Shown here in pieces: positions 23,223 to 28,805 of a stretch of DNA of 64,000 bases. Origin of the DNA: Candidatus Binataceae bacterium (lineage in GTDB: Bacteria; Desulfobacterota; Binatia; Binatales; Binataceae); contig DASXMJ010000163.1 of assembly GCA_036495685.1 (NCBI GenBank), positions 1-64,000 of the forward strand, given 5' to 3'. The notes beneath the pieces were generated by a model that was not told where the DNA came from, searched no databases, and saw nothing but the letters and a program-made list of their open reading frames with translations. The position numbers were made by a program, and so were the translations under genes. Each line of letters starts with the position of its first letter. The stretch's first letter is position 1.

Positions 23223-23282
23223 CCATTCCTGACCAACCGGTAAGTGACCCGAATTAGCCTTGACAATCAAGGAGAATCCCTT

Positions 23283-23305
23283 TAGTGGACTTCATGGGTC
23301 CAGTA
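23283..23305. promoter_or_regulatory. IscR-like operator 1, upstream of the isc promoter
   Basis: 23-base imperfect palindrome with TAGTGGACT on the left and GGTCCAGTA on the right. It matches the pattern of type 1 IscR/Rrf2 sites (GACT...AGTC core flanked by AT). It is nearly the same sequence as the second site, with a 57-base centre-to-centre distance. It lies just ahead of the -35 box. Confidence 0.6.
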
Positions 23306-23315
23306 TTCCGTCTCG

Positions 23316-23343
23316 TTGACAGCTGGACGGGGATGTCTATACT
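23316..23343 (+). promoter_or_regulatory. Sigma-70 promoter of the isc operon
   Basis: Consensus TTGACA at 23316-23321, a 16-base spacer and TATACT at 23338-23343. Transcription would start near 23350, inside the second operator. About 75 bases ahead of the iscS ATG. Confidence 0.75.
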
Positions 23344-23362
23344 GGACTGTAGGAGTCCACTA
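23340..23362. promoter_or_regulatory. IscR-like operator 2, overlapping the -10 box
   Basis: 23-base palindrome with TACTGGACT and AGTCCACTA arms, the mirror-like counterpart of site 1. It covers the -10 box and the expected start point, so a bound regulator would block transcription. The GGACT/AGTCC core fits the type 1 IscR consensus known from gamma-proteobacteria; no iscR gene lies in the operon. Confidence 0.65.
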
Positions 23363-23418
23363 ATTTTCGGGTTCGCCTGGAAGTGGATGGATGCCTGTCC
23401 AGCGAGCGGAAGATAAAG

Positions 23419-24636
23419 ATGCTTAAGACGCCGGTTTACATGGACAATCACGCGACGACGCCGTGCGACCCGCGTGTGCTCGACGCGATGTTGCCTTATT
23501 TCACGACCAAATTTGGCAACTCCGCAAGCCGCAATCATAGTTTCGGCTGGGAAGCCGAAGAGGCGGTCGGCAAAGCGCGCGATCAAATCGCGGGCATCAT
23601 CAACGCCAAGTCCAGAGAAATCATCTTTACCAGCGGCGCGACCGAGTCCGACAACCTTGCAATCAAGGGTGTCATCGAATTCTACAAGGACAAGGGCAAC
23701 CACGTCATCACCTGTGTCACCGAGCATAAGGCCGTGCTCGATTCGTGCCGCGCCCTCGAACGGGGGGGCAAGGCGAACGTGACGTACCTGCCGGTCGACA
23801 AGTACGGGATGGTCGATCCGGACGCGGTGCGCAAGGCCATCACTGACAAGACCGTGCTGATCTCGATCATGTACGCAAACAACGAGATCGGCACGATTCA
23901 TCCAATCCGCGAGATCGGCAAGATCGCCAAGGAGAGGGAAATCATCTTCCACTGCGATGCGGTCCAGGCGGTCGGCAAGATTCCGGTGGACGTGGAAAAG
24001 GACGGCATCGATCTGCTCGCGATGAGTGGTCACAAAATCTACGGTCCCAAGGGCGTCGGCGCGCTTTACGTACGCTCGAAGGGACCGCGCGTGCGGCTGA
24101 CCCCGATCATCGACGGCGGCGGTCACGAGCGCGGAATGCGGTCGGGCACTCTCAACGTTACGGGAATCGTCGGCTTCGGCTTGGCCTGTGAGATCGCGAA
24201 GAACGAGTTGGCGGGTGAAGCCCGTTACCTGATCGATCTGCGTAGTCGGTTGCAGGCACAATTGTTCGAGCGGCTCGACGAGATCTATGTGAACGGTCAT
24301 CCGACCGAGCGCCTGCCCGGCAATCTGAACGTGAGCTTTGCCTATGTCGAAGGCGAGTCACTGCTGATGGGTATCAACGACGTGGCAGTCAGTTCGGGCT
24401 CTGCGTGTACCTCGGCAACCTTGGAACCCTCCTACGTAATTCGCGCGCTCGGAACCAATGAAGAGCTGGCGCACAGCTCGATCCGATTTGGGCTGGGCCG
24501 GTTCAACACCGGTGCGGAAGTCGACTACGTGGCGGAGCGTGTGACCAAGGAAGTGAGGCGGCTGCGCGAAATGTCGCCGTTGTACGAGATGGCCAGGGAA
24601 GGAATCGACTTGAAATCGGTCCAGTGGAAAGCGTGA
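23419..24636 (+). CDS. iscS: Cysteine desulfurase IscS
   Basis: 405 residues from ATG 23419 ([20 protein letters not shown]); the frame opens further upstream at 23383 but GGAAGA precedes 23419. The PLP lysine is in [12 protein letters not shown] near 206; [13 protein letters not shown] binds the cofactor phosphate side; the catalytic cysteine is in SSGSACTSA near 328. The long loop and total length are those of group I (IscS/NifS) enzymes, not SufS. It takes sulfur from cysteine and passes a persulfide to IscU. First gene of iscS-iscU-iscA-hscB-hscA-iscX. Confidence 0.96.
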
Positions 24637-24660: not shown

Positions 24661-25080
24661 ATGTCCTATTCAGATAAGGTTCTCGACCATTACAACCATC
24701 CCCGCAACGTCGGAAGTTTTGCCAAGGACGATGCGAACGTCGGAACCGGTGTAGTCGGCGCGCCCGAATGCGGCGACGTGATGAAGCTGCAGCTCAGGAT
24801 CAACGACGCCGGGGTCATCGAAGATGCACGCTTCAAGACCTTCGGTTGCGGCAGCGCGATCGCGAGTTCGAGTTACGTGACCGAGCTGGTCAAGGGCAAG
24901 CACATCGACGATGCGATAGCGATTAAAAATACGGTCATCGTGAAGGAACTTAACCTGCCCCCGGTAAAGATCCATTGCTCGGTGCTCGCCGAGGATGCGA
25001 TCAAGGCCGCCATTACCGACTGGAAGACGCACAAGGGCCTCGCCCCGCAGTCCGAGCAGGCGAAAGCGCAGGAGAAGTAA
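24661..25080 (+). CDS. iscU: Fe-S cluster assembly scaffold IscU
   Basis: 139 residues. The three ligand cysteines are in place: Cys37 (PECGD, with Asp39), Cys63 (FGCGSA) and Cys106 (IHCS). LPPVK at 99-103 is the HscA recognition motif, which fits the hscB-hscA genes downstream. Lacks any NifU-type C-terminal domain. It builds [2Fe-2S] and [4Fe-4S] clusters from IscS sulfur. Good ribosome site (GGAGG) before the ATG. Confidence 0.97.
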   Translation: MSYSDKVLDHYNHPRNVGSFAKDDANVGTGVVGAPECGDVMKLQLRINDAGVIEDARFKTFGCGSAIASSSYVTELVKGKHIDDAIAIKNTVIVKELNLPPVKIHCSVLAEDAIKAAITDWKTHKGLAPQSEQAKAQEK

Positions 25081-25095
25081 CGACGCACGGGCCCG

Positions 25096-25413
25096 ATGAT
25101 TTCTCTGTCCGACAACGCGGTACACAAGATCAAGCAGCTCGTCTCCGAGAAAGGCGACCAGGCGGGACTGCGGGTCAAAGTCGTCGGGGGCGGATGCTCC
25201 GGGCTGCAATACCGCATGGAAGTCGATGCCGCCAAGGAGCGCGACAAGATTTTCGAGCGCGACGGCGCGCGCCTGATCGTGGATAAGAAGAGTTTTCTTT
25301 ACCTGAATGGCTCCGAACTAGACTACGCCGAAGAGCTGATGTCGTCGGGGTTTAGGGTGGTGAATCCCAACGCCAAACGCAGCTGCGGATGTGGGGAATC
25401 GTTCGTTGTATGA
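25096..25413 (+). CDS. iscA: Iron-sulfur assembly protein IscA (HesB family)
   Basis: 105 residues. Conserved cysteines are Cys34 in VVGGGCSGLQY and the pair Cys97/Cys99 in RSCGCGESF. A-type carrier that takes clusters or iron from the scaffold to apo-proteins. Fifteen bases after iscU, in the same operon. ErpA and IscA cannot be separated by motif alone; the operon position favours IscA. Confidence 0.95.
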   Translation: MISLSDNAVHKIKQLVSEKGDQAGLRVKVVGGGCSGLQYRMEVDAAKERDKIFERDGARLIVDKKSFLYLNGSELDYAEELMSSGFRVVNPNAKRSCGCGESFVV

Positions 25414-25443: not shown

Positions 25444-26076
25444 ATGATCCAATGTCCGTCATGCGGACGGCAGCAAGGACCGCGACTGATCTGTGAGAAC
25501 TGCGGCGCCCCGCTGGGCGCAGAGGTCGACGGGTTCGCCGCGTTCTCGTTTCCGCGCAAGCTGATCCTCGACACCTCTGCGCTTGAGCGCGTCTATCACG
25601 AGCTGAGCCGACAGATTCATCCCGACCGTTTCGCGCAGGGCTCCGCTCGGCTCCGCGACGCCAGCCTACGCAGCACCGCGCTGCTGACGCGCAGCTACCG
25701 CACGCTGCGCGATCCGATCGCGCGCGGGCTGTACTGGCTTGAGCTTAAGGGTGAAAAGCTCGCCGACAACAACAAAACCGTACCCCCCGATCTCGCAGAA
25801 CTCGTATTCGAGGTCCAGGACGAGCTCAGCGAACTGCGCGAGGCAGGTTCCGATCTTCCACGGCTGCGCGAGCGCAGCCGCGCGCGCCGGATCGAACTGG
25901 AAAGTGCGATCAATTCGTTGCAGTGCGATCTGGCGCGAAACTTCGAGCGCTGGGATGCCGGCGGCGACCCCCGACAACTCAGCGCCGAGCTCAAGGCAGT
26001 GCTTTCAAAGATCGCTTACCTGCGCACTCTGATTCGTGACGTAGACCGGGGACTTGAAAATCTCAAGGCAGCCTGA
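25444..26076 (+). CDS. hscB: Co-chaperone HscB with N-terminal zinc domain
   Basis: 210 residues. A tetracysteine zinc knuckle (Cys4, Cys7, Cys17, Cys20) precedes the J domain, which has HPDRF at 59-63, and a C-terminal helical bundle follows (about 100-208) that binds IscU. E. coli HscB has no zinc knuckle; human HSC20 does. It presents IscU to HscA and stimulates its ATPase. Its stop overlaps the hscA start in an ATGA (26073-26076), so translation is coupled. Confidence 0.9.
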
Positions 26077-27938
26077 TGACCCGCATCTTCGGTATTGACC
26101 TCGGCACGACCAACAGCCTCATCGCGACGATGGAGAATGGTGCTCCACGGGTCATCGCCGATCCCCAGACCGGCCAGACGCTGCTGGAATCAGTAGTCGC
26201 GCTCGCGCCCGACGGCGCAGTGCACGTCGGCCGCGACGCGGCGGAGATGGAACCCCACCTCAGCCGCGAGCAGGACGGGCGGGTAAGTGCGGTCGGCTTT
26301 CCCGGCGGCGAATACGGCGCGGTTATACGCTCGGTAAAGCGATACATGGGAGTGGGTGGAGAGGAAGTCGCTCCCGAGGAACGGGCTCGCTATGCATTTG
26401 CCGACCTGTCGGGGCCGGTCGTACGTTTTCGAATTGGTAAGCGGGCGTTCACTCCGCCGCAAATTTCAGCCGAGATACTGAACGCGTTGAAGCGGCGCGC
26501 CGAACGCGCGCTCGGCGAGAAGGTGGAGCGGGTGGTTATCACGGTTCCCGCTTATTTCAACGATGGCCAGCGGCAGGCAACCAAGGATGCAGGGCGGCTG
26601 GCGGGTCTCGAAGTGGCTCGGCTGGTGAACGAACCTACCGCGGCCTCGCTGGCCTATGGGCTCAACCAATTGGCCGAGGGAAACGTGGCGGTCTACGACC
26701 TCGGGGGTGGCACCTTTGACATCTCGATTCTAAGCATCAAGGGTGGCATTTTCGAAGTCCTTGCAACCAACGGCGATACTCACCTGGGCGGCGACGATAT
26801 GGACAGTGCGTTGGTGGATTGGCTGCTGGCGGAAACTCCGGCGGAAATCAGGCGCGACCGTCACGTATGGAACAGCGCCCGACGCGTTGCCGAGGACGCC
26901 AAGAAGCGTCTCAGCGAAGCCGGCGAAGTGGAGGTCCGACTCGAGTTGCCGGGCCACCTGATTACCAAGCCGCTCACCCGCCCAGCGCTCGAGAAAATGG
27001 CCGAGCCCCTGGTCGCGCGGTCGCTCAAGCGCTGCGAGCTGGCGCTTGCCGATGCGAAGCTTGCCGCAGACGAAATCGCGACGGTGGTCCTGGTCGGCGG
27101 GGCCACGCGCATGCCGCTGGTGCGCAGGAGAGTCGCCGAGTTGTTTGGTCGCGAACCGCTCTGCTCGCTGAATCCTGACGAGGTCGTGGCCCTCGGCGCC
27201 GCGGTCCAGGCGGGTGTGTTGATGGGCACGCAGGGCGATATGCTACTCCTCGACGTGGTTCCCCTGTCGCTTGGCATCGAGACGATGGGCGGAGTCATGG
27301 AACGGCTTATCCATCGCAATACCACCATCCCAACCAGCGTCACCGAGAATTTCACCACCGCTGTGGATAATCAGAGCCATGTGGATATCCACGTTCTCCA
27401 GGGCGAGCGGGAGCTTGCCAAAGACTGCCGGAGTCTCGCACGATTCAAACTGGGACCTATCGAAGCACAGCCGGCTGGACTGCCCCGGATTGCGGTCACT
27501 TTCCTCATCGACGCAAACGGGATACTAAATGTCAGCGCACGTGACGAGCGCACCGGCCGCGAGCACTCGATCGATGTCAAGCCAAGTTATGGCCTGACTG
27601 ACGACGAGATCGAACGGATGCTCGAAGAGGCGATCGATCTGGGCGAGGAGGATCTGGAGCAGCGGCTTCTGATCGTCGCTCGCAACGACGCCGAGCAGAT
27701 CCTGGGGGCGCTGCGCAAGCAGCTGGGCGAGTTTCCGGGACTCATCGGACCGGACGAACGGGCGCGGCTCGAGGAGGAGGCGGAGCGGTTGGAGGTGGCA
27801 CGCAAGACATCGGACCGCGAGCTCATTTCCAGACTGGTGGAAGAGTTGAATGAGCTGAGCACCCCGTTCGCGGGACGCATCATGGATTTTGCCATCAAGC
27901 AGGCGCTGGAAAAGAAATCGGTCGAAGAGGTGTCGTAA
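26076..27938 (+). CDS. hscA: Hsp70-type chaperone HscA
   Basis: 620 residues. The nucleotide-binding domain opens [15 protein letters not shown] at 4-18 and continues with the phosphate-2 loop ([14 protein letters not shown]) and adenosine region ([13 protein letters not shown]). The substrate domain starts about residue 385 ([20 protein letters not shown]). The lid is the C-terminal ~100 residues. The missing long C-terminal EEVD-type tail and operon position mark it as HscA rather than DnaK. It drives cluster release from IscU. Confidence 0.95.
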
Positions 27939-27953
27939 CGGAGGCGTCTCAGT

Positions 27954-28175
27954 ATGGGACTCAAGTGGGATCAAGCCGAAGAGATCGCGGAGGTGCTCGC
28001 TGAAAACCACCCTGGAATCAATCCGCTGGATGTTCGCTTTACCGATCTGCGCCAGTGGGTGATCGACCTTGACGAGTTCGATGACCAGCCGGGTTCCTCG
28101 ACCGAGAGCAAGCTTGAGGCCATCCAGATGGCTTGGAACGAACTTTATGAGGAACAGAACGACGAGGACGAGTGA
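27954..28175 (+). CDS. iscX: IscX (YfhJ) Fe-S assembly protein
   Basis: 73 residues: MGLKWDQAEEIAEVLAENHP, then DVRFTDLRQWVIDLDEFDD, an acidic winged-helix protein of the IscX family that binds IscS and iron. Sixteen bases after hscA. The ferredoxin (fdx) that in E. coli lies between hscA and iscX is missing here. Confidence 0.93.
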   Translation: MGLKWDQAEEIAEVLAENHPGINPLDVRFTDLRQWVIDLDEFDDQPGSSTESKLEAIQMAWNELYEEQNDEDE

Positions 28176-28226
28176 ATAGATGCCGAAGGAACGGCGTCGA
28201 TATCTTTGAGAGGAGGTGGGGATGCG

Positions 28227-28805
28227 GTGGAAGCCAATCGCAGCTCGAGAGTGGGGGTAGAGCAGGGGACCAAGATGCAGGAGAAGGAAACCCTGGACGA
28301 AAGGTTGCCGAACTTATTCGAGCCGGACACCCTTTTGCCCATCCAGTATTTCGAGGCGATGCGTAAGAAGCATCTGCTCGAGGGCGAGAAGCGCCTGATC
28401 CTGAGTGTGCTGGAAGATGCGGTCGAGTGCTTCATGAAATGCATCGATGCAGCGACCAACAAGGGACAGCGCCTCTTCCGCGAGGCGGATGAGTGGATCA
28501 CCCACGAGGACAAGCGCTGGGTGTTCTCGTTCGACAACGTCTGCGACATGCTGGACATCAACGCAGAGTACATGCGGGTCGGATTGAACAGGTGGAAGGA
28601 ACGGAAAATCGAATTGATTGCGCGCCGGCGCGCCGAAGCGGAGGTGGCTGCCGCCAATCCCGCGCTGCCCGAGCCGGCCGCTCCGACGCCGGCGCCCAAT
28701 CCCGCCAAAGTGTTCGCTCAGCCTGCCGCCGTCCATCATCGCGAGCACGAGCATCGGGTCCGCTCGACCCATGCATCCTCCAAACGACGCAGGGCGCGCG
28801 CGTAA
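28227..28805 (+). CDS. Unknown soluble protein downstream of the isc operon
   Basis: 192 residues from a GTG at 28227 with AGGAGGT at 28211-28217; ATG at 28275 (MQEKETLDERLPNLFEPD) is an alternative start. The middle is helical with a repeated amphipathic pattern (KRLILSVLEDAVECFMKCID, FDNVCDMLDINAEYMRVGLN), reminiscent of small families with a helix-turn-helix-like EYMRVGLNRWKERK end. The C-terminal 50 residues are Pro/Ala/His-rich and disordered. Not recognised. Close to iscX (51 bases), so possibly read through from the isc promoter. Confidence 0.6.
   Translation: MEANRSSRVGVEQGTKMQEKETLDERLPNLFEPDTLLPIQYFEAMRKKHLLEGEKRLILSVLEDAVECFMKCIDAATNKGQRLFREADEWITHEDKRWVFSFDNVCDMLDINAEYMRVGLNRWKERKIELIARRRAEAEVAAANPALPEPAAPTPAPNPAKVFAQPAAVHHREHEHRVRSTHASSKRRRARA

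Follow-up and report, generated by a model that had tools for sequence, protein, structure and literature searches.

Paired Rrf2-type operators at an iscS promoter of uncultured Binatota and a candidate regulator encoded outside the isc operon

The window analyzed here, the whole 64,000-nucleotide stretch of DNA from a Candidatus Binataceae genome (G000), carries at positions 23260 to 23363 what is very probably the switch of that genome's only ISC operon, predicted from sequence to consist of tandem promoters with an operator each and likely repressed by an IscR-like Rrf2 protein encoded on contig C22. The operator pair is a real, deeply conserved regulatory element; as a switch it is of an ordinary kind, unusually laid out. 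None of the papers listed in a literature search, judged from the listings, deals with isc regulation in Binatota.

All features in the window are given on the forward strand. As the preliminary description had stated, the operon begins with iscS (cysteine desulfurase; 23419 to 24636, ATG at 23419), which opens a single run ending at 27938 and containing iscU (scaffold; 24661 to 25080, above the TIGR01999 cut-off), iscA (A-type carrier; 25096 to 25413, profile match), hscB (cochaperone; 25444 to 26076, above the TIGR00714 cut-off), and hscA (chaperone; 26076 to 27938, profile match). Within the 64-kb window, no IscR-like Rrf2 match was found. The interval from 27939 to 28274, which is the site of iscR in sister families, is an empty slot, and no convincing iscR remnant was found between hscA and the next gene, where the best E values among the matches listed were 0.07 and above, over short scattered stretches. 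That next gene (28275 to 28805, start codon picked by eye) encodes a conserved hypothetical protein for which no Pfam hit passed the cut-off (L211 to L219, L228, and L229). Because the gene comes after hscA, or after iscR, in different families of Binatota, its product may be part of the iron-sulfur assembly set. The genome assembly has 245 contigs that total 4.69 Mb, at 96% completeness; no SufB/D was found in it, and the same search was positive in 14 of 14 control genomes. ISC thus appears to be the sole SUF/ISC-type system of G000.

The promoter previously described in front of iscS, TTGACA-N16-TATACT, was recovered at 23316 to 23343 by sequence and by promoter scan (11 of 12 matches; shuffled sequences averaged 0.3). 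It is designated P2, the proximal promoter, with its −35 hexamer at 23316 to 23321 and its −10 hexamer at 23338 to 23343, 16 nucleotides (nt) apart. Two 23-base palindromes had been reported at this promoter, and both were found, although each is better described as 25 bp. The proximal operator, ATACTGGACTGTAGGAGTCCACTAA (23339 to 23363), overlaps the P2 −10 hexamer and the presumed transcription start, and the distal operator, TTAGTGGACTTCATGGGTCCAGTAT (23282 to 23306), lies upstream of the P2 −35 hexamer. These positions agree with the earlier placement, which had overlooked that the upstream palindrome also lies across the −10 region of another, putative promoter with its own TTGACA. The −35 hexamer of this distal promoter, P1, is at 23260 to 23265, and its likely −10 is TAGTGG at 23283 to 23288 (spacer of 17 nt; weak, with 3 of 6 matches) or alternatively TTAGTG (spacer of 16 nt).

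The promoter elements were conserved together with the operators. Of 46 proximal sites, 44 were preceded at 20 to 25 nt by a −35 hexamer that matched in at least 5 of its 6 positions; of 19 distal sites, 17 had a perfect TTGACA 22 to 23 nt upstream, compared to a background of 1.9%. Because of this conserved TTGACA, the distal palindrome looks like the operator of P1, beyond being an extra site upstream of P2; P1 itself, with its weak −10, would be an active promoter. The doubled module recurs, with a second (distal) site in 19 of 33 upstream regions of the window's family. Distances between distal and proximal operators fell into groups of 57, 70 to 72, 78 to 82, and 92 bp, a pattern suggestive of steps of one helical turn, read here from related genomes that provide no independent test. 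In many relatives, the proximal operator has TATACC or TATACT as its left arm, which gives a better −10 and poorer symmetry, and the right arm is constant as GGTCCACTAA. The proximal operator therefore seems to trade with the −10 hexamer that it overlaps.

By symmetry alone, the two operators are ordinary. Both consist of inverted arms that are 80% complementary over 25 nt, but arm symmetry is modest, at 7 and 8 of 12 positions, and 267 of 63,976 stretches in the window reach 8 or more. Loose pattern scans did not separate the sites from background, with TGGACT-N5-AGTCCA at up to three mismatches occurring at chance level in the window (18 observed, 17.1 expected), whereas exact and profile scans did. 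Both operators fit the exact pattern TKGAC-N7-GTCCW, for which 5 strand matches were counted in the window where 0.34 would be expected (as many in 0 of 100 shuffles). When a symmetric motif was trained on 61 sites with the window's genus excluded, the isc operators ranked first and second in the 64 kb, with scores of 29.4 and 24.1; the third-ranked place in the window scored 10.0, and the best of 60 random 64-kb sequences scored 19.2. A sequence model of 49 sites, built from relatives and from the window with its own operators included, produced three matches at E values of ≤10 in the 4.7-Mb genome, all on the two operators. The exact fit, the top two motif scores in 64 kb, and conservation in relatives together place the operators beyond chance.

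Presence of the palindromes in relatives had been set beforehand as a test of the preliminary description, and they were present. Sixty loci yielded 55 usable upstream regions, 49 of them distinct (6 duplicated named records), and 47 were kept. Loci were dropped when their ends were cut by the contig or stretch (L111 and L135) or when they had no IscS match (L144, L145, and L148); two second iscS-like copies with 57 to 58% identity (L149 and L150), upstream of which no operator was visible by eye, were excluded before the count of 47. All 47 distinct upstream regions, drawn from the window's family and related Binatota families, had an operator at the iscS promoter (weak in 3 of them), a presence that is partly built in because the motif search picks the best place per stretch. 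The search itself supplied 46 of these sites; the remaining upstream region was only 70 bp long there, and its site was visible in a longer piece (L230). The −35 hexamer test given above and a cross-trained motif test served as controls for the built-in presence. A motif trained on other families detected 32 of 33 upstream regions of the window's family, with at most 1 of 4,000 control stretches scoring as well, and the single miss was the upstream region truncated to 70 bp. A motif trained on the window's family placed 11 of 14 upstream regions from other families at ≤48 of 4,000 controls, 7 of them at 0, and failed in the other three (L126, L129, and L142). Among named records, the closest IscS sequences (L021 to L027) were 81 to 86% identical and came from metagenome-assembled genomes (MAGs) labeled Deltaproteobacteria, Proteobacteria, and Candidatus Binataceae. 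By these relatives, the phylum of the window is probably Binatota.

A scan of upstream regions for the same motif, which the preliminary description had proposed, yielded no further target in G000 at E values of ≤10 by the model (150 of 508 candidates scored). Across 54 genomes, nearly all model matches were at the iscS promoter, with a few others at an E value of 0.37 or weaker, in a scan that is circular for the iscS sites that trained the model and that used stricter filters.

The preliminary description had concluded that the regulator must be encoded elsewhere and had suggested searching for Rrf2 genes; the genome holds such proteins, and a candidate can now be named. PF02082 gave five matches in G000, three of which were true Rrf2 regulators (on contigs C32, C22, and C187). 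The two weakest belonged to other proteins and were rejected; judged by reading their sequences, they are a membrane protein with a winged-helix tail and a GntR/FadR-like regulator. The membrane protein (L004, contig C43) reads as YihY-like, with a tail that resembles the Rrf2 winged helix. The C187 protein (L003) lacks a cysteine triad and was set aside as a cluster regulator. The C22 gene (26127 to 26597 of its contig) overlaps the end of ribE, and its product matches the Rrf2 domain with an E value of 2.5e−34 (118.7 bits, cut-off of 30). In alignment rows L181 to L210, read by eye, it carries the cysteine triad C-x6-C-x5-C, which provides the three cysteines of the cluster-binding branch. 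Because its score against TIGR02010, the NCBIfam IscR equivalog, was 76.5 bits, far below the curated cut-off of 207.55, the protein is referred to as IscR-like.

Gene order links the C22 protein to the isc operon. In sister families, the order iscS-U-A-hscB-hscA-Rrf2-hypothetical was found in 9 of 9 loci, which were chosen because both genes lay close together, and the Rrf2 gene in this position is the C22 orthologue. Among 22 genomes of the same class outside the family, 9 had the C22 orthologue directly after hscA; the other 13 comprised 3 with another Rrf2 gene near a second iscU, 2 with the orthologue behind a divergent iscS-like gene, and 8 without a good iscU. This second iscU, with an Rrf2 gene of a different type close by, was seen in family f5 (L220, L222, and L224), and in two of these three loci a similar site lay just upstream of that iscU. 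Within the window's family, the slot after hscA was empty, and all 30 loci examined had the C22 orthologue behind ribE. The orthologue was seen in 33 of the family's 35 genomes; the exceptions were G006 (53% complete) and G024 (87% complete, about 420 contigs), the latter of which has the operator and the C32 type and so speaks against the assignment. A tree of 48 Rrf2 rows, thinned, placed the C22 type and the operon-end type in one group (support, 85/98; 92/96 with f2 sequences) and left both the C32 type and the Nitrospira/Acidobacteria type outside it, with deep branches open and long-branch warnings. Upstream of ribE-iscR, 0 of 30 loci held a clear operator scoring above 10, and one reached 8.1; autoregulation consequently lends no support to the assignment.

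The main rival for the role is the C32 protein (2621 to 3055 of contig C32; L001 and L151), a CymR/IscR-like Rrf2 protein that has four cysteines where the cluster would be bound, whose own upstream region carries sites of the GAC-N7-GTC class and to whose motif one distal isc site (L120) is closer. Its being the isc regulator is nevertheless quite unlikely. The motif upstream of C32, TTAGATGACT-N5-AGTCATCTAA, is distinct, with A at position 20 in 25 of 30 sites, compared to 1 of 65 isc sites, and the isc motif was preferred by 64 of 65 isc sites and by 0 of 30 C32 sites (two of the 30 C32 upstream regions, L172 and L177, hold no clear site). No family but the window's yielded close C32 orthologues, whereas the operator is shared with further families; at the position of E. 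coli IscR Glu43, the C32 type carries Arg and the C22 type Glu, as read from alignment rows. Three genomes that are 94 to 96% complete (G009, G016, and G027) have the isc operator and the C22 type and lack the C32 type, a distribution that favors the C22 protein. On these comparisons of motif and of presence and absence, C32 was set aside. The C32 gene is divergent from a frame that reads like a sulfite/nitrite reductase, and two abutting 25-bp sites lie upstream of it in many relatives.

Other readings concern the palindromes themselves. It is rather improbable that the distal palindrome is an auxiliary operator that cooperates or loops with the proximal one and that its TTGACA belongs to no working promoter. 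This would suit the poor P1 −10, the seemingly helical steps in spacing, and the isc promoters of E. coli and Pseudomonas aeruginosa, where two adjacent sites precede one promoter (E. coli from the MG1655 sequence; PMC6599224). A pure auxiliary site would not, however, need the TTGACA found at 22 to 23 nt in 17 of 19 cases, and the two operators stand much farther apart than the adjoining E. coli sites, at distances that differ among genera. That the proximal palindrome acts as an RNA hairpin or terminator is very improbable: a terminator-like stem, TGGACT-GTAGG-AGTCCA, with a T run was scored at 23343 to 23359, but the left-arm changes in relatives break the stem and leave the site intact, and no Rfam family matches the window piece that contains the promoter (L101), and on both grounds this reading was rejected. 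Equally hard to credit is that the palindromes arose by chance or serve a regulator of another family. Genome-wide, TKGAC-N7-GTCCW was not enriched (19 strand matches, compared to 39 for the reversed control), and the isc operators, 57 bp apart, were 2 of the 15 genome places that it occupies; against this stand the conservation, the cross-trained motif tests, and the exact agreement of both operators with a footprinted Rrf2 motif (PMC9973013).

That motif belongs to RisR of Myxococcus xanthus, the precedent that comes nearest in anatomy as well as in mechanism. According to PMC9973013, RisR footprints cover the isc −10 and start and contain the motif T(t/g)GAC-N7-GTCC(t/a), the holo-protein represses, and the M. 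xanthus isc locus is without an iscR orthologue, RisR being encoded before suf and controlling isc and suf. The window corresponds in its motif, in having an operator (23339 to 23363) over the −10 hexamer TATACT (23338 to 23343) and a presumed start, and in an isc locus without iscR whose Rrf2 regulator would be encoded elsewhere. It differs in that the promoter-operator module is doubled, that SufB/D was not found and the candidate gene lies behind ribE rather than before suf in a two-system genome, and that the cysteines are spaced as C-x6-C-x5-C rather than at Cys92, Cys102, and Cys108 (PMC9973013). RisR is assigned there to subfamily IS6 of Rrf2, in which the Nitrospira and Acidobacteria phyla are listed; the C22 protein fell outside the Nitrospira/Acidobacteria group in the tree, which was built without a RisR sequence. 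Members of that group (among L028 to L091) resemble the Binatota regulator in having an iscS-linked Rrf2 with cysteines in the cluster region, but their IscR-like gene lies directly before iscS and the group is separate from it (100/99).

The palindromes had previously been read as type 1 IscR sites. They are Rrf2-type operators, but the type 1 label is approximate, and they match the RisR motif. As in E. coli, two 25-bp sites with a GAC-N7-GTC core precede the isc operon. Against the 25-bp type 1 consensus ATASYYGACTRWWWYAGTCRRSTAT, a string that occurs in PMC6599224, the window operators matched at 18 and 20 of 25 positions, compared to 24 and 22 for the two sites of E. coli itself, and both depart from it at symmetric positions 6 and 20, at which they follow the RisR motif of M. 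xanthus (PMC9973013). The E. coli type has Y at 6 and R at 20, whereas isc sites here are mostly of the opposite base class: position 6 is R in 57 of 65, and position 20 is C, G, or T in 64 of 65 (G in 11).

Under the favored reading, the operon would be driven by two tandem sigma-70-type promoters with a GAC-N7-GTC operator over each −10 region. Dimers of the cluster-loaded C22 protein would sit on both operators and keep RNA polymerase from using P1 and P2; under a shortage of clusters, or damage to them, the protein would lose its cluster and release the DNA, switching the operon on. Both the shut-off by the cluster-loaded form and the opening upon cluster loss are inferred from precedents. 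In the ancestor, the regulator gene probably stood directly behind hscA, which would have placed it under its own control; in the window's family it would have left the operon. With the regulator outside the operon, feedback would run via its cluster and not its amount, which would no longer follow its own repression because no clear site was found around ribE-iscR.

A broader reading is offered tentatively, namely, that the family may have rewired its Fe-S feedback: iscR would have left isc cleanly, become coupled to riboflavin synthase, and lost autoregulation; isc would be its only visible target and the only assembly system found; and the two stacked promoter-operator modules would use an operator subtype, swapped at positions 6 and 20, that insulates them from the second Rrf2 protein. 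An uncultured phylum gains a testable iron-sulfur switch, with its missing regulator named by synteny. The symmetric base pair 6/20 is a candidate discriminator between sister Rrf2 regulators of one cell, and the family would offer a naturally occurring example of negative feedback in which regulator and target operon have become uncoupled.
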